Notes: generated by a model not told the origin, from the sequence alone. DNA of 64,000 nt from Deltaproteobacteria bacterium (GCA_016192705.1 JACPTQ010000053.1:62001-126000), one strand, 5' to 3'. Counted from the stretch's first letter, positions 20,863 through 33,200 are shown. A program made the numbers and translations.

Positions 20863-20897
20863 TGTCATTATGTAAGGATAAGAAATGGACCGTTGTC

Positions 20898-21428
20898 TTG
20901 ACGCGCGATGAATTCTCAGAGTTGGCGCTCGCCTGTTTGGGTGAGGTGACCGCGTTCGCTCGCCGCCTAACGCCTGGCGGCGCCGACGCCGACGACTTGA
21001 TCCAATCGACGTACGAGCGCGCCTTCGCGACGTGGTCGACCCTGCGTGAACGACGCGCGTGTCGTGCCTGGCTGTTTCAAATCGCCCGCCACCTTCACTT
21101 CGATAGGCTGCGCGCCGTGAAAGCCCGCCCCGAGCTCCGACTGATTGACGATGACGACGCGATCCCCGCCGTCGCCACGATGGCTGCCGATGCCATCGAG
21201 CGGCTCGACGCGCGCGAGATCAACGCGGCGCTTTCGCATCTCGACGAAGCCCAACGCGAAGCCGTGCTCCTTTGCGACCTCTGGGGGTTTGCGTACGACG
21301 AGATCGCCGCCATCACGAGTGTCCCCATCGGAACCGTGCGCTCACGCATCGCGCGCGGGCGGGCGCGCTTGGCGGCGCTTCTCGGGAATGCCGCGTCCGC
21401 CGAACAATCTGAGAGGAGGCGCCCATGA
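20898..21428 (+). CDS. ECF-family RNA polymerase sigma factor, copy A
   Basis: The 176-residue sigma-70-like protein contains region 2 ('GGADADDLIQSTYERAFATW', then 'AWLFQIARHLHFDRL') and region 4 ('LSHLDEAQREAVLLCDLWG', 'YDEIAAITSVPIGTVRSRIA'). It has no regions 1 or 3, as expected of an ECF factor. TTG 20898 is used by analogy with copy B; the frame stays open upstream inside a region with no family similarity. The first 155 residues differ from copy B at only about seven positions, while the last 20 diverge. The anti-sigma gene overlaps by 4 bp. It may cross-activate the copy B efflux operon. Confidence 0.9.
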   Translation: MTRDEFSELALACLGEVTAFARRLTPGGADADDLIQSTYERAFATWSTLRERRACRAWLFQIARHLHFDRLRAVKARPELRLIDDDDAIPAVATMAADAIERLDAREINAALSHLDEAQREAVLLCDLWGFAYDEIAAITSVPIGTVRSRIARGRARLAALLGNAASAEQSERRRP

Positions 21429-22147
21429 CGTGCGACCTGCACCGAGCGGATCTCTCGGCCCACATCGATGGTGCGCTCTCGCCGGGCGAACGCGTGGCGC
21501 TCGACGAACATATCGCCGCCTGCGCCGCGTGTCGCACCGATTTCGCATCGCTCCGCGCCGTGAAACATGCGGTGGGGCGCTTGTCGAGCCGCGAAGAGCC
21601 GCCGGGCGCCGTGCGTGCGCGTGTCGAAGCGCTTCGATTTTCGCCGCCACGCATTCGTCGCCACCGCGTTGCATGGTCCGTTGCGGCGGGCCTCGTTCTC
21701 GCCGCCGGTGCCAGCGTCGCGTTCATCGTGACATCCCGCGACTCCAGTCTCACGGGCGAATTGGCCGACATCCTCGTCGCCGATCACTTGAAATCGGTGC
21801 CCGAAGCGAAGCCGGTCGAGGTGGCGTCAAGCGACTTGCGCGTCGTCGCGAAGTTCTTCGCAGGGAAGACGCCGTTCGAGCCCGTCGTCCCCGCGCTGCC
21901 CGGCGCCGCGCTTGTCGGTGGCCGCCTCTGCAAAATCGAGGGGCGTCACGTTGAACTCCTCTTTTACCGCGCCCTCGGCGAAACGCTCTCACTCTTCGTC
22001 GCCGATCGCCCACTCGCCGCGAGCGATTGCCGCGCGGCCAAGGGCCACACCGTCTGCGGCACAACCCGCGGCGCGCACACGCTGCTCCTCGTCGGCCAGC
22101 GCCCCCGCGCCGAACTTCGCGCACTTCTCGACGGGGCCTCGCTTTGA
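21425..22147 (+). CDS. Anti-sigma factor, zinc-finger type, copy A
   Basis: The 240-residue protein has an N-terminal zinc-binding anti-sigma domain with 'CDLHRADLSAHIDG' and the H-x3-C-x2-C motif 'HIAACAAC'. One transmembrane helix follows at about residues 80-100 ('WSVAAGLVLAAGASVAFIV'), then a roughly 135-residue periplasmic sensor domain ending 'RAELRALLDGASL'. It should hold the sigma factor at the membrane until a periplasmic signal arrives. It has the same length as copy B. The last four bases overlap a relic of the RND pump start (TTGA), showing this copy once preceded a pump too. Confidence 0.88.
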   Translation: MTCDLHRADLSAHIDGALSPGERVALDEHIAACAACRTDFASLRAVKHAVGRLSSREEPPGAVRARVEALRFSPPRIRRHRVAWSVAAGLVLAAGASVAFIVTSRDSSLTGELADILVADHLKSVPEAKPVEVASSDLRVVAKFFAGKTPFEPVVPALPGAALVGGRLCKIEGRHVELLFYRALGETLSLFVADRPLAASDCRAAKGHTVCGTTRGAHTLLLVGQRPRAELRALLDGASL

Positions 22148-22174
22148 AACTTCCGCGCCTCGCGCTCGCAAACC
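22144..22174 (+). pseudogene. Relic of the RND pump gene start
   Basis: These bases correspond to 30231-30261: TTG start overlapping the anti-sigma stop, then codons for 'LKLPRLALANP', nearly the same as the first 11 residues of the intact pump. The similarity ends abruptly and the frame stops about 17 codons later. The rest of the pump operon is missing, so this is a deletion or replacement breakpoint. Confidence 0.75.
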
Positions 22175-22201
22175 CGTTAATCAGCCCGGCCGATCAATCA
22201 C

Positions 22202-23347: not shown

Positions 23348-24436
23348 TTACCGAGGCTCAACTGACACCGCCGATTCGGCCGGCGCCCCGCGGGCACGCC
23401 GAAAGCGCGCAGCGATTTTCGCGGCCCAGAGGGTCGTCACGGGGAGCACGATGAGGGTGAGTAACGCCGACGAGATGGTGCCGAAGACGACGACCACGGC
23501 GATGGGGCGCTGAGTCTCGCTGCCGATGGCGTTTGAGAGTGCGGCCGGCAAGAGCCCAAGCGATGCGAGAAGCGCCGTCATAAGCACCGCGCGCAGGCGC
23601 TCGAGCGCGCCAACCTCGACCGCCTTTTCGAGCGGTTCGCCCGCGGCGTGGCGCTGCTTGATCGCGGCGACGACGAGGACGCCGTTTAAGACGGACTGCC
23701 CGAGAAGCGCGATGAATCCGACCGCTGCCGACACCGACAGCGTCATGCCGAAAAGCGCGAGGGCGAGCACGCCGCCGACGAGCGCGAAGGGGACGTTGAG
23801 GAGAACGATGAGCGCATCGCCGACGGCGCCGAGCGTCGAGAAGAGGAGAAAAAATGTGATGAGGAGCGACAGCGGGATGACGAGGCGCAGGCGCGCCATC
23901 GCGCGTTCTTGGCTTTCGAATTCGCCACCCCAGTTCATTTCGTAGCCGGCGGGGAGCTTGACGGCGCCATCGACTTTAGAGCGCGCTTCGGCGACGAACG
24001 AGCCCAAATCGCGGTTGCGCACGTTCATGCGGATGCTGACGTAGCAGCGTCCGTTTTCGCGCGTGATCGCGGCGCGGCCAGTTTCGGCGCGGATTTCAGC
24101 GACGGCGGCGAGCGGGATGACCGACCCATCGGCGAGAGGAAGCATGAGGCGGCGAATGGAGAACGCGTCTTCGCGCGACGACGACGGGAAGGGGACGCGG
24201 ATGTCGAACTTTGTTTCGCCGTCCCAAAAGTCGGACACGGTGTGGCCGCCGAGCGCGGTTTCGACGAAGTTTTGGACGTCGGCGAGGTCGAGGTCGTAGC
24301 GGGCGAGTGCGTCGCGCTTCAAGTGGACGGCGATTTGCGGGACTTGCGCCGATTTGACGATCCCGAGATCGGCGACACCGGCGACGGTCGCGATGACCGC
24401 TTTCGCTTTGTCGGCGGTCGCTTGGAGCTGGTGCAT
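23348..24436 (-). pseudogene. Truncated heavy-metal RND efflux gene (CusA/CzcA-like C-terminus)
   Basis: The 362 codons match only the last third of an HME-type RND permease: the porter segment ('KRDALARYDLDLADVQNFV', 'GGHTVSDFWDG') and the final six transmembrane helices ('LLITFFLLFSTLGAVGDALI', 'GFIALLGQSVLNGVLVV'). About 690 N-terminal residues are absent. Upstream of the first ATG the frame runs into TAG within about 12 codons. No adaptor or outer-membrane gene accompanies it. Without the first transmembrane half it cannot be a working pump. Its family differs from the intact pump at 30231, so it is not the missing part of copy A. It is probably a second relic at the island edge. Confidence 0.8.
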
Positions 24437-24515
24437 TTCGAAGTATCCCGCTCCGCTCGCCTATCCGCCAAACATAGAGAGGTTACGCTTCTTTTTTCTT
24501 AATGAGCATGAGCGG

Positions 24516-25046
24516 TCATCGCGAATGGTTACGACTTGGGGCAAGCGCCCGTCTGGCATTCTCCGCTACCTTCCGCAGCTCGTCCACGACAGGTTTGAGC
24601 GAGCATTCATCGCCCGCGAAAGTTACGGCCCACTTGGTGGTGTCGAAGTTCCGCAGATGGTCGCCAGGGTCGAGCCCCGAGATCATCCCCGTCGGGCCGA
24701 CGTTAGAATCCACGAAGTTCTTGCGATGCGATGACGTTGCCCATTGCTCTAATCGCTCATCGAAATGCTCGAAATGGTTTCGGAGGGTCCGTGGATTGAG
24801 CGGCGATAAATCGGGTACGCCGAGGCAAGTCCTCAGATCGCCTCCGCGCTTGAGCATTTCGGGTCGTGATGGCCAAAACAACTTCGAGACGTTACCGACC
24901 GCTATGAGGAGCGACTGAATAGAGTACCAGATTCGGTCCTTGTCTCCCGACGTGATCGCTTTTTTCAAATCAGCTGCCGCAACGAGTCCGAATCGCGCCT
25001 GCCGTTCAACCTCAGTTTGGAAGATCCGAAGAAGCATCTCGTCCAT
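24516..25046 (-). CDS. HEPN-like helical protein of the accessory island
   Basis: The 176-residue product starts at ATG 25046 after a GGAGGTGAG Shine-Dalgarno. It is mainly helical and contains 'RTLRNHFEHFDERLEQWA', in which R-N-H-F-E-H fits the R-x4-6-H motif of HEPN ribonucleases. The earlier segment 'IWYSIQSLLIAVGNVSKLFW' looks like a core HEPN helix. HEPN proteins often act as toxins or effectors in defence and TA systems. The gene is divergent from the small leaderless gene, and the base composition around it is less GC-rich than the surroundings. The upstream in-frame extension to 25190 was discarded. Family assignment is by motif only. Confidence 0.6.
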   Translation of the reverse strand: MDEMLLRIFQTEVERQARFGLVAAADLKKAITSGDKDRIWYSIQSLLIAVGNVSKLFWPSRPEMLKRGGDLRTCLGVPDLSPLNPRTLRNHFEHFDERLEQWATSSHRKNFVDSNVGPTGMISGLDPGDHLRNFDTTKWAVTFAGDECSLKPVVDELRKVAENARRALAPSRNHSR

Positions 25047-25279
25047 TCGCTCACCTCCAGGAGTGAGCCTAGCGTGAATTGGTAAGAGAGTTACTGTCAA
25101 GATTTGTATCGGATCGGCGGCACCCGTAGGTCTCGAATCCGCTACTGCGGGCCAGTTCCCAATCGTCTCAGAATCTCTTCTCTCACTCACGCCCCTTGCG
25201 GAATATTCACACCGTTTCCCCTTTACATGCGTTTATAGAATGCAGCAGGCAGGCTAAGACTGCTTTATGCGTTATAGGC

Positions 25280-25308
25280 TTGACAGGCGGCGTCTTTGCT
25301 TTTAAGAT
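25280..25308 (+). promoter_or_regulatory. Strong promoter of the accessory island, leaderless
   Basis: TTGACA (25280-25285), a 17-bp spacer and TAAGAT (25303-25308) form a near-consensus promoter. ATG 25315 begins 6 bp after the -10 box, so transcription should start at the A of the start codon. It is the best promoter in the island. Confidence 0.65.
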
Positions 25309-25314
25309 GGTTTT

Positions 25315-25716
25315 ATGGTCGATGACGAAAGAATCCGGATGTCGTTTATTTGGGGACCTGTCGAGATCACGATTTCGGGTCCCTCGACGCTTGTGGACCG
25401 AGCGATGAGCGGCGCGCGAGCAGCGCTAAGTGGAGCACCAGATGAAAAGACAGGTGAATTTAGGCAATCCGATTCAATCGACCCGAAACGGCAACAGCTA
25501 CGTGCGTTGCAAGTCCTGAAGGACCTTTGTGACCAGGTAGGTGGTGAAGGACCGCTTGGGACCCAAATTCGCGGCAAAGACCCTGGTGCCTTTGCGATCA
25601 TCAAACGCGAACTAAAAAATGAAGAACTCGTTGAAATGACCGGGACAAGAAAATGGGCACGCTATAGGCTTTCGGCACTAGGAAAGGAGGTGCTTACATC
25701 GGGCGAAAAAAAGTGA
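25315..25716 (+). CDS. Small island protein with winged-helix-like C-terminus
   Basis: The 133-residue protein has a beta-rich N-terminus ('MSFIWGPVEITISGPSTLVD') and a charged middle. The C-terminal 70 residues resemble a winged helix: 'RQQLRALQVLKDLCDQVG', then 'AFAIIKRELKNEELVEMTGT', then 'RKWARYRLSALGKEVL'. It may be the regulator or DNA-recognition part of the island. Its mRNA is predicted to be leaderless. I do not recognise the family. Confidence 0.6.
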   Translation: MVDDERIRMSFIWGPVEITISGPSTLVDRAMSGARAALSGAPDEKTGEFRQSDSIDPKRQQLRALQVLKDLCDQVGGEGPLGTQIRGKDPGAFAIIKRELKNEELVEMTGTRKWARYRLSALGKEVLTSGEKK

Positions 25717-25740
25717 CGGCCGTGCGCTAACACGACCGTC
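25715..25740 (+). terminator. Hairpin at the end of the small island gene
   Basis: A 10-bp stem with one mismatch (GACGGCCGTG/CACGACCGTC) and a 6-base loop overlaps the stop codon. There is no T-run, so it may be a weak or factor-assisted terminator. A second perfect hairpin (CGCGGT-AA-ACCGCG) follows at 25768-25781. The rest of the 196-bp gap up to the nuclease gene holds a TATAGA box at 25893-25898 but no clear -35. Confidence 0.4.
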
Positions 25741-25911
25741 GTTGAACCACCGCCTCGGGAGCGTTCACGCGGTAAACCGCGCAGGTTCAGGAGCTATTGT
25801 ACCGCTCTTGCGCCCGATCGGCAAGCCGCTCGCCCGCTTTTTGAAACAACCCTAAAAGAACGGAATAGAGCTATTTGTTGTATTGCGAGTTTTATAGAAA
25901 GGATAAAGAAA

Positions 25912-27162
25912 ATGAGATTGATCAAAGAGATTTGTGGAGATTTTATTAAGTTTGAAAACGATTCGATTCTTGAAGATCCGGGAACTGCACGACAACTAAT
26001 TCTTCAACCGGAGGAGAAGCGGGATGACTTTTTTAGGCGGCTCGTAGGACTTGGGCGGGATGTCTTCGTATTCGCGCGGGATCGAAACGACGGGGAAATT
26101 TTGAAGGGTGTCGTTCGCGAAGTGGAGGACTGTTGCCAGCGGATCCCGCGGGACGTCGCAGAGAAACTGATTTCGATTCTCGGTCAAAAGGGTGAGGGCC
26201 CCCTTTCTGAAGTTACGTCAACTGTCGATCGGGTCCGTGCGGTTTTGGAAAAAGTTCTTGGAGATGTTCAGGGAACGTTCGCAAATGAGCTCGATCCGCG
26301 CGGCGATAAGTCGACATTGGGCCGCGCGCTTCTCGGCGTGCGGAACCTGCTGGACGCGGAAAGAGTGGATTCGGTGCAGCAACGTGTGCAGCGTGAGATT
26401 GAGTCGATATCGAAGTCGGATGGTCGTCTAAGCACGGCTGTTCGCGAGTCCGTTCGGGACGAAATGCGGGTGCTGGCCGAGAGGATAGGCGAGATCGAAA
26501 AAACGCTTCTCCACGAAGCGGGAGTCAGAGAAACCGTGAATTCGACGACTTTGAAAGGAAAGTCTTTTGAAGAGCGTGTCGTCGATGAACTCCAACCGTT
26601 CGCAAAAATGACCGGCGCACAGATAACCCATGTTGGGGGAGACAACCGGCCCGGCGACGTCTTGGTGGAAAACAAAGCGGGTTGCAACCGGTCGGTCAAA
26701 ATTGTGATTGAAGCGAAGGATCGTACGGCTCCGTTCGGCCGGAAGGCGATTTCTGAAATCCTGGATAATGCCATTCGAGAACGAAACGCAACGGCGGCAA
26801 TCTACGTGTCGCCTGGTATCGAAGGATTGGCCAGGGAAATTGGAGATTGGGCCGAAGGAGTTGTCGGCGAGGCTCCATGGGTCGCAACAACGCAGCAGTT
26901 CCTGCAGATCGCGGTGCGATTTGTCGTCGCTCAGGCTCAACAGCAGGGCGGCCGAATGGCCGACCCGTCAGTTCTTCGTCCACAGCTTGCCCGCCTTCGC
27001 TTGGCGCTTCGCGGGGTCAGTGAAATGAGGAAAAAGATTACCGCCATTCATGATGGCGCGAATGGAATCGAAGAACAGATCACACTCTTAAAGGATGGCG
27101 CTGAAACTGCGCTGTCCGAAATGGAAAAAGCTATTGAAACGCATAAGGAGGAAGTGAAATGA
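25912..27162 (+). CDS. Coiled-coil protein with PD-(D/E)XK nuclease domain (DUF2130-like layout)
   Basis: The 416-residue protein has a helical N-terminal half (about residues 65-205) with coiled-coil heptads, then a compact nuclease-like domain. This domain has 'GKSFEERVVDEL' (Glu220/221), 'DNRPGDVLVE' (Asp249) and 'VKIVIEAKD' (Glu267-x-Lys269), which together fit the E...GD...ExK active site of restriction-type nucleases. A second helical segment (residues 355-416) closes the protein. The arrangement recalls DUF2130 proteins. The RadA-like gene overlaps by 4 bp, so nuclease and ATPase are made together and probably act on one DNA substrate. SD is AAGGA; ATG 25912. Confidence 0.78.
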   Translation: MRLIKEICGDFIKFENDSILEDPGTARQLILQPEEKRDDFFRRLVGLGRDVFVFARDRNDGEILKGVVREVEDCCQRIPRDVAEKLISILGQKGEGPLSEVTSTVDRVRAVLEKVLGDVQGTFANELDPRGDKSTLGRALLGVRNLLDAERVDSVQQRVQREIESISKSDGRLSTAVRESVRDEMRVLAERIGEIEKTLLHEAGVRETVNSTTLKGKSFEERVVDELQPFAKMTGAQITHVGGDNRPGDVLVENKAGCNRSVKIVIEAKDRTAPFGRKAISEILDNAIRERNATAAIYVSPGIEGLAREIGDWAEGVVGEAPWVATTQQFLQIAVRFVVAQAQQQGGRMADPSVLRPQLARLRLALRGVSEMRKKITAIHDGANGIEEQITLLKDGAETALSEMEKAIETHKEEVK

Positions 27163-28475
27163 AGAAACTTTGTGAAATCCCGTATGAGGAGTCAAAGCCC
27201 CTGGAAATCAACGACCCAAGGTGGGTTCAAACCATCACCGCTCCGGGCCTAGTGCCGGGAGGCGTTTATCTCTTGGCAGGACCGCCCGGTGCCGGAAAAA
27301 CAACCGCCGCTGCACAAGTAGCGATCGGTGCTGCGACGGCTGGTTACGACGTGTTGTTCGTCGCGACTGAACAACGCGCGGAGACCATTGCATCGTACTT
27401 TCGAAGAATTGCTGTGACCGCCGACGCTCTCGGCGGGCTGGGCCGAATTCGGATTGACGATTCGATCAATGACATCGCAGAGCTTCCTGCGTTCCTGAAA
27501 GGTGCTGCGCTCGGGGCCGATACCGCAACCAATCTGAAACTGGTGGTGGTTGATTCCATCCAAGGGCGGGGACTCTCCGCGGTCGCAACCAAGACCTACT
27601 CCGCACTCTTTGAATTCACCGCGGACGCAAGAAGGCGCGGCCTCGTTGTCCTCCTTTTGGCGCACGTAACAAAGCGGGGTTCGATTGCGGGCCCCAAGGC
27701 CCTTGAGCACGACGTCGATTGCGTCATCACGATGCGGAACGCATTCGGGCTTCGGCCGGTTTTCGTCTCCAAGAATCGATTTGGCGCAACTCATCCGGAA
27801 CCAACTGTGTTGGCAGTTGACGAGTCGGGCGCGCTCTTCGAATCGAAGCTTCAAACAGCACAGGCCGCCGTGGCCGCAGGTTTGACGGGTTTAGGATTGG
27901 AGCGGGCCGAATGTCAGACGGCGGTGTCGATTCCGAAGTTTGGCCAATCCGCCAGGTTGAACGCTCCTTTCCTTCCATCGAAAAAGATCCAGCAAATCCT
28001 CTCGGTTCTCTCGCAAATCGATGGCGTCGACCTGTCCGACCTGTCGTACGATGTTAATTGTCTGATGCCGCAGCGGCATCAATATCGCGGTGAGTTGGAC
28101 CTTGCTCTCGCGGTCTCCATGCTCGCCTCATATGCGCGTTTACCGGTTCCCGCTGATGCGCTGTTCGTGGGCGAACTAGATTTGGCGGCGCAAATTCGAG
28201 AACCAAGCGATGCGTGCAAACAGATGTTGGTCGAAGCTCTTCGGGACACGCGAAATCATGATTTGCAGAGGGTTTTCCTATCGGAACGTTGCGCGCAGTT
28301 GATTCGCGAAGAACTTCGAAACGTAAGCGATCCGTCCCCGAGACCAACGACTTGCATTGTTGGCGTTCAAAACCTTGTTGAAGTTGTCGCGAAGCTCTGG
28401 CCTGGAATCGTGGGTCCACTGGGGCGAGAGGCCACCGCGAGCGGCCCCGAGCGCGAAAAGAACGAGGCCGCCTAA
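27159..28475 (+). CDS. RadA-like RecA-family ATPase with Lon-like C-terminal domain
   Basis: The 438-residue protein carries Walker A 'GPPGAGKTT' (residues 41-49), Walker B 'LKLVVVDSIQ' (127-136) and the RadA-specific segment 'HVTKRGSIAGPKALEHDVD'. The hallmark 'KNRFG' is at 205-209. The C-terminal half fits the Lon-protease-like domain of RadA ('RHQYRGELDLALAVSMLASY', 'DALFVGELDLAAQIRE'). The N-terminal C4 zinc finger of housekeeping RadA/Sms is missing; only one Cys lies in the first 30 residues. RadA promotes branch migration in recombination. This paralogue is coupled to a nuclease gene by a 4-bp overlap and a strong AAGGAGG site, pointing to a dedicated DNA-processing or defence role. 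Confidence 0.85.
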   Translation: MKKLCEIPYEESKPLEINDPRWVQTITAPGLVPGGVYLLAGPPGAGKTTAAAQVAIGAATAGYDVLFVATEQRAETIASYFRRIAVTADALGGLGRIRIDDSINDIAELPAFLKGAALGADTATNLKLVVVDSIQGRGLSAVATKTYSALFEFTADARRRGLVVLLLAHVTKRGSIAGPKALEHDVDCVITMRNAFGLRPVFVSKNRFGATHPEPTVLAVDESGALFESKLQTAQAAVAAGLTGLGLERAECQTAVSIPKFGQSARLNAPFLPSKKIQQILSVLSQIDGVDLSDLSYDVNCLMPQRHQYRGELDLALAVSMLASYARLPVPADALFVGELDLAAQIREPSDACKQMLVEALRDTRNHDLQRVFLSERCAQLIREELRNVSDPSPRPTTCIVGVQNLVEVVAKLWPGIVGPLGREATASGPEREKNEAA

Positions 28476-28636
28476 CAGGTTTCAGATTCTCCCGTTTGCC
28501 AGAATTTATTACCATCCCAATCCGCCCGCCGAAAAACAACCTCTTCTGTTGTGAGCGCCGGTAAGAACGTAGACGGCAAAACACGGCGACGAAAGTCCGA
28601 AAACCGAAGTCCGCTCGCGCGTAATCCGGAGCCGCG

Positions 28637-28955
28637 GAATGGCTTGTTGGCGCCGCGGATCGGCTGATCGAGCGCGCGGACCAGCTAGTCGCCAGTGAAA
28701 ATCGGCTAATCAGGGACATAGATCGGCCAAATCGCGATAAAGATTGGCTCATCGGCGCTGCGGAGCGCATTTTTTGGATGCGGAACCCGATGTTTCGCCG
28801 ATGGATCGCGAGCTTTTGGATGTTTTACGGGTCTTTTTCGACGCAGACCGGCTGTTTTTGGATGCAGAGGCCAACAATTTGCCTGTGGGTCGCGATTTTG
28901 TGGAGGCGCAGCATGTCAGTGACCTGGCGGAACTTTCGGGCGCTCGTTTTCGTCC
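28637..28955 (+). repeat. Decayed 21-bp tandem (heptad-coding) repeat
   Basis: A GATCGGCTnATC-like core recurs at exact 21-bp steps (28637, 28658, 28679, 28700, 28721, 28742). In frame it gives heptads DRLIERA, DQLVASE, NRLIRDI, DRPNRDK, DWLIGAA. Beyond 28763 the periodicity continues, but the heptad sense shifts frame (RELLDVL, RVFFDAD, RLFLDAE). An in-frame stop occurs one unit upstream of the first copy. It looks like the remains of a coiled-coil repeat gene. Bases 28476-28636 hold a short ACAAC/GTTGT hairpin and no gene that I can support. Confidence 0.6.
28929..28955 (+). promoter_or_regulatory. ECF-type promoter, copy B
   Basis: GGAACT (28929-28934), 16 bp, CGTCC (28951-28955) repeats the boxes and spacing of copy A. 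It drives the sigma/anti-sigma/RND operon and probably responds to both sigma copies. Confidence 0.6.
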
Positions 28956-28984
28956 TATTCTATTGAAGGGAAGGGATCTCGTTT

Positions 28985-29515
28985 TTGACGCGCGATGAAT
29001 TCGCAGATTTGGCGCTCGCCTGCTTGGGCGAGGTGACCGCGTTCGCTCGCCGCCTAACGCCTGGTGGCGCCGACGCCGACGACTTGATCCAGTCGACGTA
29101 CGAGCGCGCCTTCGCGACGTGGTCGACCCTGCGTGAGCGACGCGCGTGTCGTGCCTGGCTGTTTCAAATCGCCCGCCACCTTCACGTCGATAGGTTGCGC
29201 GCAGTGAAAGCCCGCCCCGAGCTCCGACTGATTGACGATGACGACGCGATCCCCGCCGTCGCCACGATGGCCGCCGATGCCATCGAGCGTCTCGACGCGC
29301 GCGAGATCGACGCGGCGCTTTCGCATCTCGACGAGGCCCAACGCGAAGCTGTGCTCCTTTGCGACGTCTGGGGTTTTGCGTACGACGAGATCGCCGGCAT
29401 CACGGGCGTTCCCATCGGAACCGTGCGCTCGCGAATTGCGCGCGGGCGTGTCGCGATCGCCGGTTGGCTCGCCGATGCCGCGTCGGCCGATGGGAAGGGG
29501 AGGAGGCGCCCATGA
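28985..29515 (+). CDS. ECF-family RNA polymerase sigma factor, copy B
   Basis: This 176-residue ECF factor has the same region 2 and region 4 motifs as copy A ('DADDLIQSTYERAFATW', 'YDEIAGITGVPIGTVRSRIA'). It starts at TTG 28985, with AAGGGA 8 bp upstream. It opens a five-gene operon in which every junction overlaps by 1-4 bp: sigma, anti-sigma, RND permease, adaptor, outer-membrane factor. The likely role is to induce the pump when the membrane anti-sigma partner senses envelope stress or a toxic compound. The C-terminal 20 residues differ from copy A. Confidence 0.92.
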   Translation: MTRDEFADLALACLGEVTAFARRLTPGGADADDLIQSTYERAFATWSTLRERRACRAWLFQIARHLHVDRLRAVKARPELRLIDDDDAIPAVATMAADAIERLDAREIDAALSHLDEAQREAVLLCDVWGFAYDEIAGITGVPIGTVRSRIARGRVAIAGWLADAASADGKGRRRP

Positions 29516-30234
29516 CGTGCGACGTTTGTCGGATCGACCTGTCGAGCCACGTCGATGGCGTGCTGGGCGCCGATGAACGCGCGGCCCTCGACGAACACCT
29601 CGCGTCGTGCGCGACCTGTCGCGGCGTCTTTGAATCGCTTCGCGCCGTGAAACACGCGGTGGGACGCCTGCCAAGTCGCGACGAGCCACCGGGCGCCGTG
29701 CGCGCGCGTGTCGAGGCGCTTCGGTTTTCGCCGCCACGCATTCGTCGCCACCGCGTTGCGTGGTCCGTTGCGGCGGGTCTCGTTCTCGCCGTGGGTGTCA
29801 GCGTCACACTCATGGTGACGTCCCGCGATACTCGCATTGCGCCCGAGCTCGCCGACCTTCTCGTCGCCGACCATTTGAAATCGGTGCCCGAAGCGAAGCC
29901 GGTCGAGGTGGCGTCGAGCGATTCGCGTGTCATCGCGAAGTTCTTCGCCGGACGCACGCCGTTTGCACCCATCGTCCCGGCGCTTCCAGGCGCCTCGCTC
30001 GTCGGTGGCCGCGTCTGCAAGATCGCCGGGCGCCACGTCGAACTTCTTTTTTACCGCGCCCACGAAACGACGCTCTCGCTTTTCGTCTCCGACCAGCCAC
30101 TCGCCAGAGCCGATTGCCGCGCGGCGAAAAGCCACACCGTCTGCGCCGCGACCCGCGGCGCGCACACGCTCGTCCTCGTCGGCCAGCGCCCCCGCGCCGA
30201 ACTTCGCGCGCTCCTTGACGGTGCGTCGCTTTGA
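29512..30234 (+). CDS. Anti-sigma factor, zinc-finger type, copy B
   Basis: The 240-residue membrane anti-sigma factor has 'CDVCRIDLSSHVDG' and H-x3-C-x2-C as 'HLASCATC', one transmembrane helix ('WSVAAGLVLAVGVSVTLMV') and a periplasmic sensor domain. Its N-terminus has an extra Cys compared with copy A (CDVC against CDLH), which may alter zinc binding. ATG 29512 overlaps the sigma stop by 4 bp; the longer upstream frame is discarded. Its stop overlaps the TTG start of the RND gene. Confidence 0.9.
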   Translation: MTCDVCRIDLSSHVDGVLGADERAALDEHLASCATCRGVFESLRAVKHAVGRLPSRDEPPGAVRARVEALRFSPPRIRRHRVAWSVAAGLVLAVGVSVTLMVTSRDTRIAPELADLLVADHLKSVPEAKPVEVASSDSRVIAKFFAGRTPFAPIVPALPGASLVGGRVCKIAGRHVELLFYRAHETTLSLFVSDQPLARADCRAAKSHTVCAATRGAHTLVLVGQRPRAELRALLDGASL

Positions 30235-33200
30235 GACTCCCGCGCCTCGCGCTCGCAAACCCTTACCTCGTCGTCGTTTCCGCGATCGCCCTCTGTCTCA
30301 TCGGCGCCATCGCCATTTCGAAAACGCCCGCCGACATTCTCCCGAAGTTCAAAACGCCCGCCGTCCAAATCCTCACGCTCTACCCCGGCATGCCCGCCGA
30401 CATCGTCGAACGCGACATGACGAACCGCCTCGAACGCTGGACCGGCCAAGCGAACGGCATCTCCCGCCAAGAGTCGCGCTCGATGATCGGCGTCTCGATC
30501 GTGCGCGATTTTTTTCGCCCCGACATCGACCCCAACACCGCGCTCTCGCAAGTCGCCGCGCTCGCGACCAGCGACCTCTACTACTTGCCGCCCGGCACCG
30601 CACCGCCGATGGTCATGCCGTTCGACCCGACCGCGCCGATCCCCGTCGCGCTCCTCGCCGTTTCGAGCGCCGACAAGGGCGAAAAAGAACTTTACGACAT
30701 TGCCTATTTTCAGCTTCGCAACCTGCTGCAAGGCATCCCCGGCGCCATCGCACCCGCGGTCTACGGCGGCAAGCTCCGCCGCATCCTCGCCTACTTGAAG
30801 CGCGACGAAATGTACGCGCGCGGCCTCTCGCCCATGGACGTCGTCCAGGCGATCAAAGCGCACAACGTCCTCATCCCGACCGGCAACGCGAAGATCGGCG
30901 GCATCGATTACCAAGTCGAGGCGAACGGCATGTTGCCGACGGTCGCCGAAATGAACGACATCCCGGTCCGCACGAAAAACGGCGCGACGGTCTTTGCGCG
31001 CGATGTCGCGTCGGTCGAGGATTCGGCGCAGATCCAATCGAACGTCGTGCGCGTGAACGGCCGCCGCCAAGTCTACATCCCGATCTATCGCCAGCCCGGC
31101 GCGAATACCCTCGAAGTCGTCGACGGCATTCGCCGCGAAATCGGGCTTCTGCTCGCGCGGTTACCGCCCGGCATCAACCTCGACATCGTGTTCGATCAGT
31201 CGACGTTCGTTCGAACATCCATCAAGAGCCTCGCCGTCGAAATGATCGCGGGCGGCCTTCTCGCGGCGCTGATGGTCCTCCTTTTCTTGGGCAGCTTTCG
31301 ATCCACCGCCGTCGTGTTCATGTCGATTCCGCTGTCGCTCGTCGCCGCGTTCATTGGCCTCTACGCAACCGGCAACACCGTGAACGCGATGACGCTCGGC
31401 GGGCTCGCGCTCGCGGTCGGGCGACTCGTCGACGACTCAATCGTCGTGCTCGAAAACACCGTGCGCCACCTCGGCATGGGAAAGCCCGTCGCAACAGCGG
31501 CGCTCGATGCCGCGTCCGAAGTGGGCGCGCCGGTCCTCGTTGCAACGGTCGCAACGGTCGCGGTGTTTTTTCCGGTCGTGTTTTTGAGCGGCATGGGGCA
31601 ATTCCTTTTTTCGCCGCTCGCGCTCGCGGTCGGCTTCGCGATGGCCGCAAGCTACGTCATCTCGATGACGCTCGTTCCCGCGTTCGCCGTGCGTTTCCTC
31701 GCACACGCGGGTGAACGCGAAAGTCGACTCGCGCGCTTGAGCGACGCACTCGGCGCCGCCTTTGGCCGCTTGCTCGCGCGCCTCTTGCGATTCCGCTGGG
31801 CGCTCATCCTCGTCGGCGCGGGCGGCTTTGGCGCGTCGCTCTTGCTTTACCCGGCGATCGGCAAAGAGCTGATGCCCGAGAGCGACTCGGGACAGTTCAC
31901 CGTGCTCGTGCGGGCGCCGACGGGAACGCGCATCGAACGCACCGAAGAAGTCATCGCGGCGATCGAGTCCGAGATTCGTCGCGCCGTCCCCGAGGGCGAG
32001 TTGCAAATGCTCATCTCGAACATCGGCGTCCTTTACGATTGGCCCGCCGCCTACACGCCGAACGCCGGCCCCGGCGACGCTTTCATCCAGGTCGAGCTCG
32101 CGAAAGGTCGCACGCGAAAAGTTCGCGAAGTCGTGGCGACGCTGCGACGCGACCTTCCCGCGCGATTCGCGGGCGTCGAATTCTCGTTTGAGACCGGCGG
32201 CATGATCACCGCGGCGCTCAACATGGGCCTGCCCGCACCGATCAACATTCAAGTCGAAGGCAACGACCTCCCCCAGCTCCACAAGCTCGCACGCGAAATT
32301 GCCGCGCGTGTGCGCACCGTGCCCGGTGCCGTCGACGTGCGCGTCGGAGAGCGAATCGACTACCCGATGCTCGCACTCGACTTGGAGCGGGCCCGCGTCG
32401 CGCGGCTCGGGCTCACGACGCAAGAGGTCGTCAAGAACGTCGTCACGACGATCAACTCGAGCGTCAACTTCGACCCGTCGTTTTGGATCGACCACAAAAG
32501 CGGAAACCATTACTTCCTCGGCGCGCAGTACCGCGAGCGCGACGTCGAGGATTTTTCGTCGCTCGAATCGATTCCGCTCACGGGGCGCGCGCAAGAAAAA
32601 CCGGTCACGCTCGGCAACATCGCGGCCATCAAGCGCGGCGAGGCGCCAAGCGAAGTGCGCCACGTGAACATCCGGCGTATCGTGAATGTCTTTGCGAACG
32701 CGAGCGGCCGCGACATCGGCGGCGTCGCGGGCGACATCGAGCGGGTGATCGCGCAGGTGAAGCCGCCCGACGGATATCGCGTTCACATGCGCGGCGAAGT
32801 GCAAAGCATGAACGACTCGTTTCGCGACCTCGGCTTTGGATTCCTCCTCGCGACCGCGCTCATTTACTTGCTTCTTGTCGCGCAGTTCAAATCGTTCGTC
32901 GACCCGTTCATCATCCTCATCGCCGTGCCGCTCGGCCTCGCGGGCGTGCTCGTGACGCTCGTCGTGACAAACACGACTCTGAACGTCGAATCGTTCATGG
33001 GCATCATCTTCATGGTCGGCATCAGCGTGTCGAACAGCGTCCTCCTCGTCGACTTCGCGAATCGCGAGCGCGCCGCCGGGCGCTCGTCGCTTGAAGCCGC
33101 GGCGTCAGCAGGTCGCGTTCGGTTGCGGCCGATCTTGATGACGTCGATCGCGGCGATGCTTGGGCTTCTGCCGATGGCGCTTGAAATCGGCGAAGGCGCC

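Follow-up and report, generated by a model that had tools for sequence, protein, structure and literature searches.

A low-GC island of foreign origin with an unusual predicted nuclease–RadA operon in a deltaproteobacterial genome

Pairs of a nuclease and a motor form a large class of phage defenses in which the motor decides what is sensed. In Hachiman, a helicase senses the state of the DNA and unleashes a nuclease (PMC12278908), and in systems of the HerA–DUF4297 type a nuclease effector works with a ring-forming ATPase, with activity depending on formation of the complex (PMC12198126). Nuclease and ring-ATPase pairs are an established defense design (PMC12198126; PMC12278908). RadA proteins are branch-migration motors (PMC11612176); a RadA-type motor paired with a nuclease was not found in the defense catalogues, and literature searches on a role of RadA in defense turned up nothing relevant. 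This study concerns a stretch of 64,000 nucleotides from a Deltaproteobacteria bacterium (the window; GCA_016192705.1, JACPTQ010000053.1:62001-126000; the source assembly has 88 contigs, among which no 16S gene was found), in which an earlier reading of the sequence alone had proposed a defense or DNA-processing island of four genes. Our analysis describes a real, foreign, defense-flavored island whose unusual nuclease–RadA operon is so far unreplicated, and which is at most a variant of the nuclease–motor design. Its features are as follows.

24,475–28,980, no strand: low-GC island, 54.6% GC against 63.2% in the flanks
24,516–25,046, minus strand: gene for a HEPN-type predicted ribonuclease (RNase) of 176 residues, called from its open reading frame (ORF), Shine-Dalgarno (SD) sequence, motif and helical model; the frame is open to a GTG at 25,190
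25,280–25,308, plus strand: sigma-70-like promoter TTGACA-17-TAAGAT, score 10/12, not above chance alone
25,315–25,716, plus strand: ORF for a small orphan protein of 133 residues, assigned by eye as winged helix-turn-helix (wHTH)-like
25,912–27,162, plus strand: gene for a predicted PD-(D/E)XK nuclease of 416 residues with helical/coiled-coil arms and E220, G248-D249 and E267-A-K269
27,144–27,150, plus strand: SD sequence AAGGAGG of the RadA-like gene, within the nuclease gene
27,159–28,475, plus strand: gene for a RadA/Sms-family ATPase of 438 residues without a C4 zinc finger, with Walker A GPPGAGKTT, E71, VVVDSIQ, KNRFG and a Lon-like domain

All four ORFs are intact and lie together as first described, and the unusual gene types assigned to them (HEPN, wHTH-like, nuclease and RadA-like) are upheld. 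The impression that this DNA is less GC-rich than its surroundings is borne out by measurement. The island has 54.6% GC, whereas the other 4-kb stretches of the window range from 60.6 to 66.9% (mean 63.2%, standard deviation 1.5). GC at third codon positions (GC3) is 0.49–0.60 in the four island genes as compared to 0.75–0.83 in neighboring genes. The GC contrast lies far outside chance, and a foreign origin of 24,475–28,980 is therefore well supported. Within the island, the nuclease stop codon and the RadA-like start codon overlap by exactly 4 bp (ATGA) behind the strong SD sequence, as had been claimed. This arrangement makes coexpression of the two genes, with coupled translation, very likely.

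The assignment of the nuclease to the PD-(D/E)XK superfamily is supported by its motifs and predicted topology and is less distinct in profile and fold matches to known members. Residues E220, D249 and E267-A-K269 fall on a predicted abbbab core, and the AF2 model of this core (residues 219–345) consists of a helix, three strands, a helix and a strand, with predicted local distance difference test (pLDDT) values mostly of 65–88; both the motifs and the predicted topology fit a PD-(D/E)XK nuclease. The match to Mrr_cat is weak (E 0.02, under the cut-off), and no Pfam model scored above its cut-off. The top Foldseek matches are mainly PD-(D/E)XK proteins (Hjc, EcoT38I, VRR_NUC, NucS-like, DdmD and SPARDA), the best having E = 0.06 and none being significant. 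A kinship with RmuC, convincing by eye, was rejected, as hhalign of the nuclease core and coiled coils gave probabilities of 0.1–3% against 11 RmuC sequences.

The RadA-like call is likewise sustained. The best family is TIGR00416 (E 1.4e-33), although the score of 116.4 bits does not reach the NCBIfam equivalog cut-off of 403. The ATPase core retains Walker A, Walker B (D132 in VVVDSIQ), a glutamate at the catalytic position (E71) and K205-N-R-F-G; the ATPase activity of pneumococcal RadA requires the lysine of Walker A as well as the lysine and arginine of KNRFG (PMC11612176). The Lon-like domain is indicated by a ChlI/Lon match at residues 310–360 and by an alignment to 5lkm that extends to residue 356. 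However, the N-terminal C4 zinc finger is absent: the ATPase core begins after some 30 residues, whereas the comparison RadAs have Cys4; the zinc-finger domain of RadA is crucial for its partnership with RecA (PMC5512693). The protein is 27–30% identical to bona fide RadA and sits on a very long branch (2.2 substitutions per site) in a small tree. The genome encodes a separate housekeeping RadA elsewhere, 30% identical to the island protein, and the island copy is therefore not needed for repair. A search of 195 same-phylum genomes for a close relative gave a best match of 36% identity, with a zinc finger, and no closer relatives were found in viral contigs. The RadA-like proteins of viral contigs are mostly short ATPase cores (about 249–284 residues) that have KNRFG but neither a zinc finger nor the length to hold a complete Lon-like domain; reduced RadA proteins thus exist outside the island as well. 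None of these viral proteins has an island-type nuclease nearby.

Relatives of the nuclease provide a link to defense. Full-length relatives (27–34% identity) occur in Nostoc plasmids and chromosomes, and more distant ones occur in five same-phylum genomes; none closer was found in viral contigs. E220, G248-D249 and E267 have aligned counterparts throughout the Nostoc family, whereas K269, a lysine in the island and same-phylum proteins, is replaced by arginine (EAR/EVR) in every aligned Nostoc member. In Nostoc chromosomes, a small helix-turn-helix gene, often together with a gene for 103 residues, lies just upstream of the nuclease relative. At most of these chromosomal loci, the relative adjoins TnsB/TnsC/TniQ of V-K-type elements, type I-B Cas6/Cas8/Cas7/Cas5, HsdM/HsdS/HsdR, or PtuA-like and HNH genes, and at some it stands beside restriction-modification (R-M) or Cas genes with no Tns genes in the fetched stretch. 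On Nostoc plasmids, two relatives lie downstream of an ATPase gene, one of these ATPase genes being confirmed as DUF87/HerA-type. The distant relatives (560–600 residues) adjoin long HsdR-like genes in four same-phylum genomes, one HsdR-like gene being confirmed by profile (REase_I 6e-274). At two of these four loci, a gene for a sigma-54 activator (one profile-confirmed) is a further neighbor, and nuclease relative, HsdR-like protein and activator possibly constitute a regulated restriction module. Given neighbors of the Tn7-like/CRISPR-associated transposon (CAST), R-M, Cas and Septu-like kinds, the nuclease family is defense- and transposon-associated, and Nostoc Tn7-like/CAST transposons, whose cargo varies (V-K, I-B Cas, type I R-M or Septu-like), may carry it as a standard accessory.

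The HEPN gene is divergent from the small wHTH-like gene, as had been noted, with a different start from the GTG at 25,190 given for it. That start would add 48 residues, which are disordered in the model. The ATG at 25,046 is probably the true start, placing the gene at 24,516–25,046, because it has a GGAGG SD sequence and nearly all relatives begin there. The motif itself was confirmed: R137-N-H-F-E-H142 (numbered from GTG 25,190) agrees with the Rx4-6H pattern with a polar residue after the arginine, the signature of most HEPN RNases (PMC3710099). Conservation in the protein peaks at R-[ND]-x-x-E-H: its R, E and H, and the D-E right after it, are invariant among 13 aligned members; a Rubrobacter relative has lost the motif. 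The predicted structure is a confidently modeled four-helix bundle (pLDDT 81) with no significant fold match in the PDB, and no Pfam, NCBIfam, PHROG or PADLOC model matched. Relatives are found on plasmids of Rubrobacter, Alteromonas and others, on 13 IMG/VR viral contigs, mostly close to contig ends, and in phages of Gordonia and Glutamicibacter. In each prophage, plasmid and viral context that was inspected, the gene occurs by itself. The protein thus appears to belong to an unnamed prophage-type family of predicted RNases with an invariant R[ND]xxEH.

The wHTH-like protein has no family, plasmid or viral relative in the profile databases, plasmids and viral contigs searched. The near-consensus promoter attributed to its gene exists, but two such hits against 1.2 ± 1.1 in shuffled sequence are unremarkable. 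The site ends 6 nt ahead of the ATG, so either the transcript would lack a leader or translation would begin at a methionine farther downstream. The gap between the wHTH-like and nuclease genes is 195 bp. An 11-pair hairpin between these genes (25,715–25,740) has a T-run on the minus strand, where there is no evident gene for it to terminate.

We tentatively read 24,475–28,980 as a horizontally acquired anti-mobile-element island of independent modules, with the nuclease–RadA motor pair as its core. The foreign composition, the operon architecture, the motifs and the defense-type neighborhoods of the nuclease relatives are direct observations; from these, we infer how the pair might work. The RadA-family ATPase, lacking its zinc finger, would form a hexameric ring on DNA and would either sense DNA in an abnormal state, such as branched or replicating DNA, or translocate along it. 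Its descent from RadA hints that the substrate is branched or D-loop DNA. The motor would then form a complex with the cotranslated nuclease, localizing or activating it, and the nuclease would cut the abnormal DNA engaged by the motor, conferring protection against phage. The HEPN protein would be a separate, prophage-type predicted RNase acting by abortive infection, and the wHTH-like protein is possibly a local regulator. The defense role put forward by the sequence-only reading accords with the neighborhoods of the nuclease relatives, while the activity itself stays at the level of these conditional steps. A bolder form, which we consider doubtful, is a new two-component immune system whose RadA-family branch-migration ATPase would have been released from RecA by losing the zinc finger, and would recognize phage replication or recombination intermediates and direct the PD-(D/E)XK nuclease to them.

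Several results count against the reading as an anti-mobile-element island. No nuclease relative has a RadA partner, and the pair was found at no other locus. The nine nuclease-bearing Nostoc genomes gave one RadA match in eight and none in the ninth, with no RadA beyond the housekeeping one in any, and the nuclease–RadA operon is a single-genome observation. The collections searched hold no close relatives of the island nuclease, however, so absence of the pair elsewhere is weak evidence. Cleavage by the Nostoc relatives is uncertain because the catalytic lysine is an arginine there. The nuclease model is poor outside the core, with the helical arms badly modeled and a mean pLDDT of 55.7. No further defense gene was identified in the window. 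Finally, PADLOC returned no match for the HEPN, wHTH-like and nuclease proteins and only weak generic ATPase matches for the RadA-like protein, a result that also bears out the earlier remark that the combination was not recognized as a named system.

The edges of the island bear on a second explanation, under which it is a scrapyard of mobile-element genes brought together by chance, the nuclease/RadA-like operon having no dedicated pair function and the HEPN and wHTH-like genes being unrelated passengers. Three features outside the island are concerned.

20,891–22,179, plus strand: left copy of a sigma/anti-sigma direct repeat
28,980–30,265, plus strand: right copy of this repeat, 86% identical to the left copy
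23,348–24,436, minus strand: fragment of a resistance-nodulation-division (RND) efflux gene at the left island edge, missing its N-terminal two thirds

The island had been described as inserted between two copies of a duplicated cassette. It does lie between the 1.3-kb repeats, but it touches only the right copy, which starts at the island end; on the other side, 2.3 kb of host-like DNA lie between the left copy and the island. The left repeat copy stops just within the RND gene that comes next; at the right copy, this gene is intact. Residues 2–333 of the truncated pump align to model positions 683–1015. No tRNA gene was found in the 64-kb window, and no Rfam element was found in its 20–34 kb portion. 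This broken gene would suit a scrapyard, as would the segment at 28,480–28,980, which appears noncoding and carries a degenerate repeat. The repeat, in the low-GC tail of the island, comprises two direct 50-nt copies with 84-nt spacing (28,771–28,904; 72% identical). The stand-alone occurrence of HEPN in prophages and the failure of relatives of the island genes ever to share loci point the same way. In contrast, none of the four ORFs is broken, the ATGA overlap with its SD sequence appears selected, and the RadA-like protein has kept its catalytic motifs despite great divergence. On balance, we regard chance assembly as rather unlikely, though likelier than the remaining alternatives.

A third explanation is that the pair helps a mobile element to recombine or replicate: a branch-migration motor of RadA type and a junction-cutting nuclease would serve integration, resolution or repair rather than defense. 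The known activity of RadA proteins (PMC11612176) would suit this role. The first-ranked Foldseek match of the nuclease is a Holliday junction resolvase, the nuclease also has a weak profile match to a RusA-like phage family, its Nostoc relatives adjoin TnsC/TniQ in several elements, and RadA-like proteins without zinc fingers occur on phage contigs. However, no integrase, transposase or replication gene was recognized in the island. The Nostoc gene also stands beside R-M or Cas genes where the fetched stretch has no Tns genes, and the zinc finger needed for partnership with RecA is missing. These data make a recombination aid quite unlikely. A single four-gene system of nuclease, RadA, HEPN effector and regulator, as combined in the sequence-only reading, is very improbable, since adjacency and shared foreign base composition are offset by the divergent HEPN gene, the gap before the nuclease gene, the occurrence of HEPN relatives as single genes, and about 40 loci with nuclease or HEPN relatives, none of which holds a second gene of the set. 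That reading had made its case depend on homologues co-occurring; they do not for the four-gene set, nor so far for the nuclease–RadA pair, for which the test is a weak one.

If the anti-mobile-element reading is true, a RadA-type motor would point to D-loops or branched DNA as the trigger of a defense, a signal that was not found described in the literature searched. Apart from the pair, two unnamed families come to light, each a defense candidate alone: nucleases that recur in Nostoc CAST/Tn7-like transposons next to R-M, CRISPR and Septu-like genes, and prophage HEPN proteins with the invariant R[ND]xxEH. Compared with HEPN RNases of prophages, the island protein shares a predicted helical bundle that carries the R[ND]xxxH motif, as well as prophage-borne relatives, and it differs in matching none of the family models and no PDB fold significantly. 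The nuclease shares with Mrr_cat/Hjc-type PD-(D/E)XK proteins the E...GD...ExK core and the predicted topology; its Mrr_cat match is weak, and its top structural matches, Hjc, EcoT38I and VRR_NUC among them, are not significant. It differs in its long helical arms on both sides and forms its own family with no Pfam model above cut-off. The motor shares with RadA/Sms (TIGR00416) the ATPase core, KNRFG and the Lon-like domain; it departs from that family in the absent zinc finger, the score of 116 bits against 403, the very long branch, an extra C-terminal tail and its status as a second copy. With Hachiman (HamAB), the pair has in common two genes, a nuclease and a DNA motor. However, HamA is DUF1837 and HamB is a different type of helicase, whereas the island motor is a RadA/RecA-fold ring ATPase, and no Hachiman model matched. 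With HerA–DUF4297 and Sir2–HerA, it shares a nuclease-type effector and a ring-forming ATPase, a likeness extended by the two Nostoc plasmid relatives that follow an ATPase gene, one of DUF87/HerA type; the island motor is RadA, not HerA, and its nuclease, having no Pfam match, is not DUF4297. By analogy, the working of the nuclease–RadA pair most likely resembles that of Hachiman and HerA–DUF4297 in general manner.

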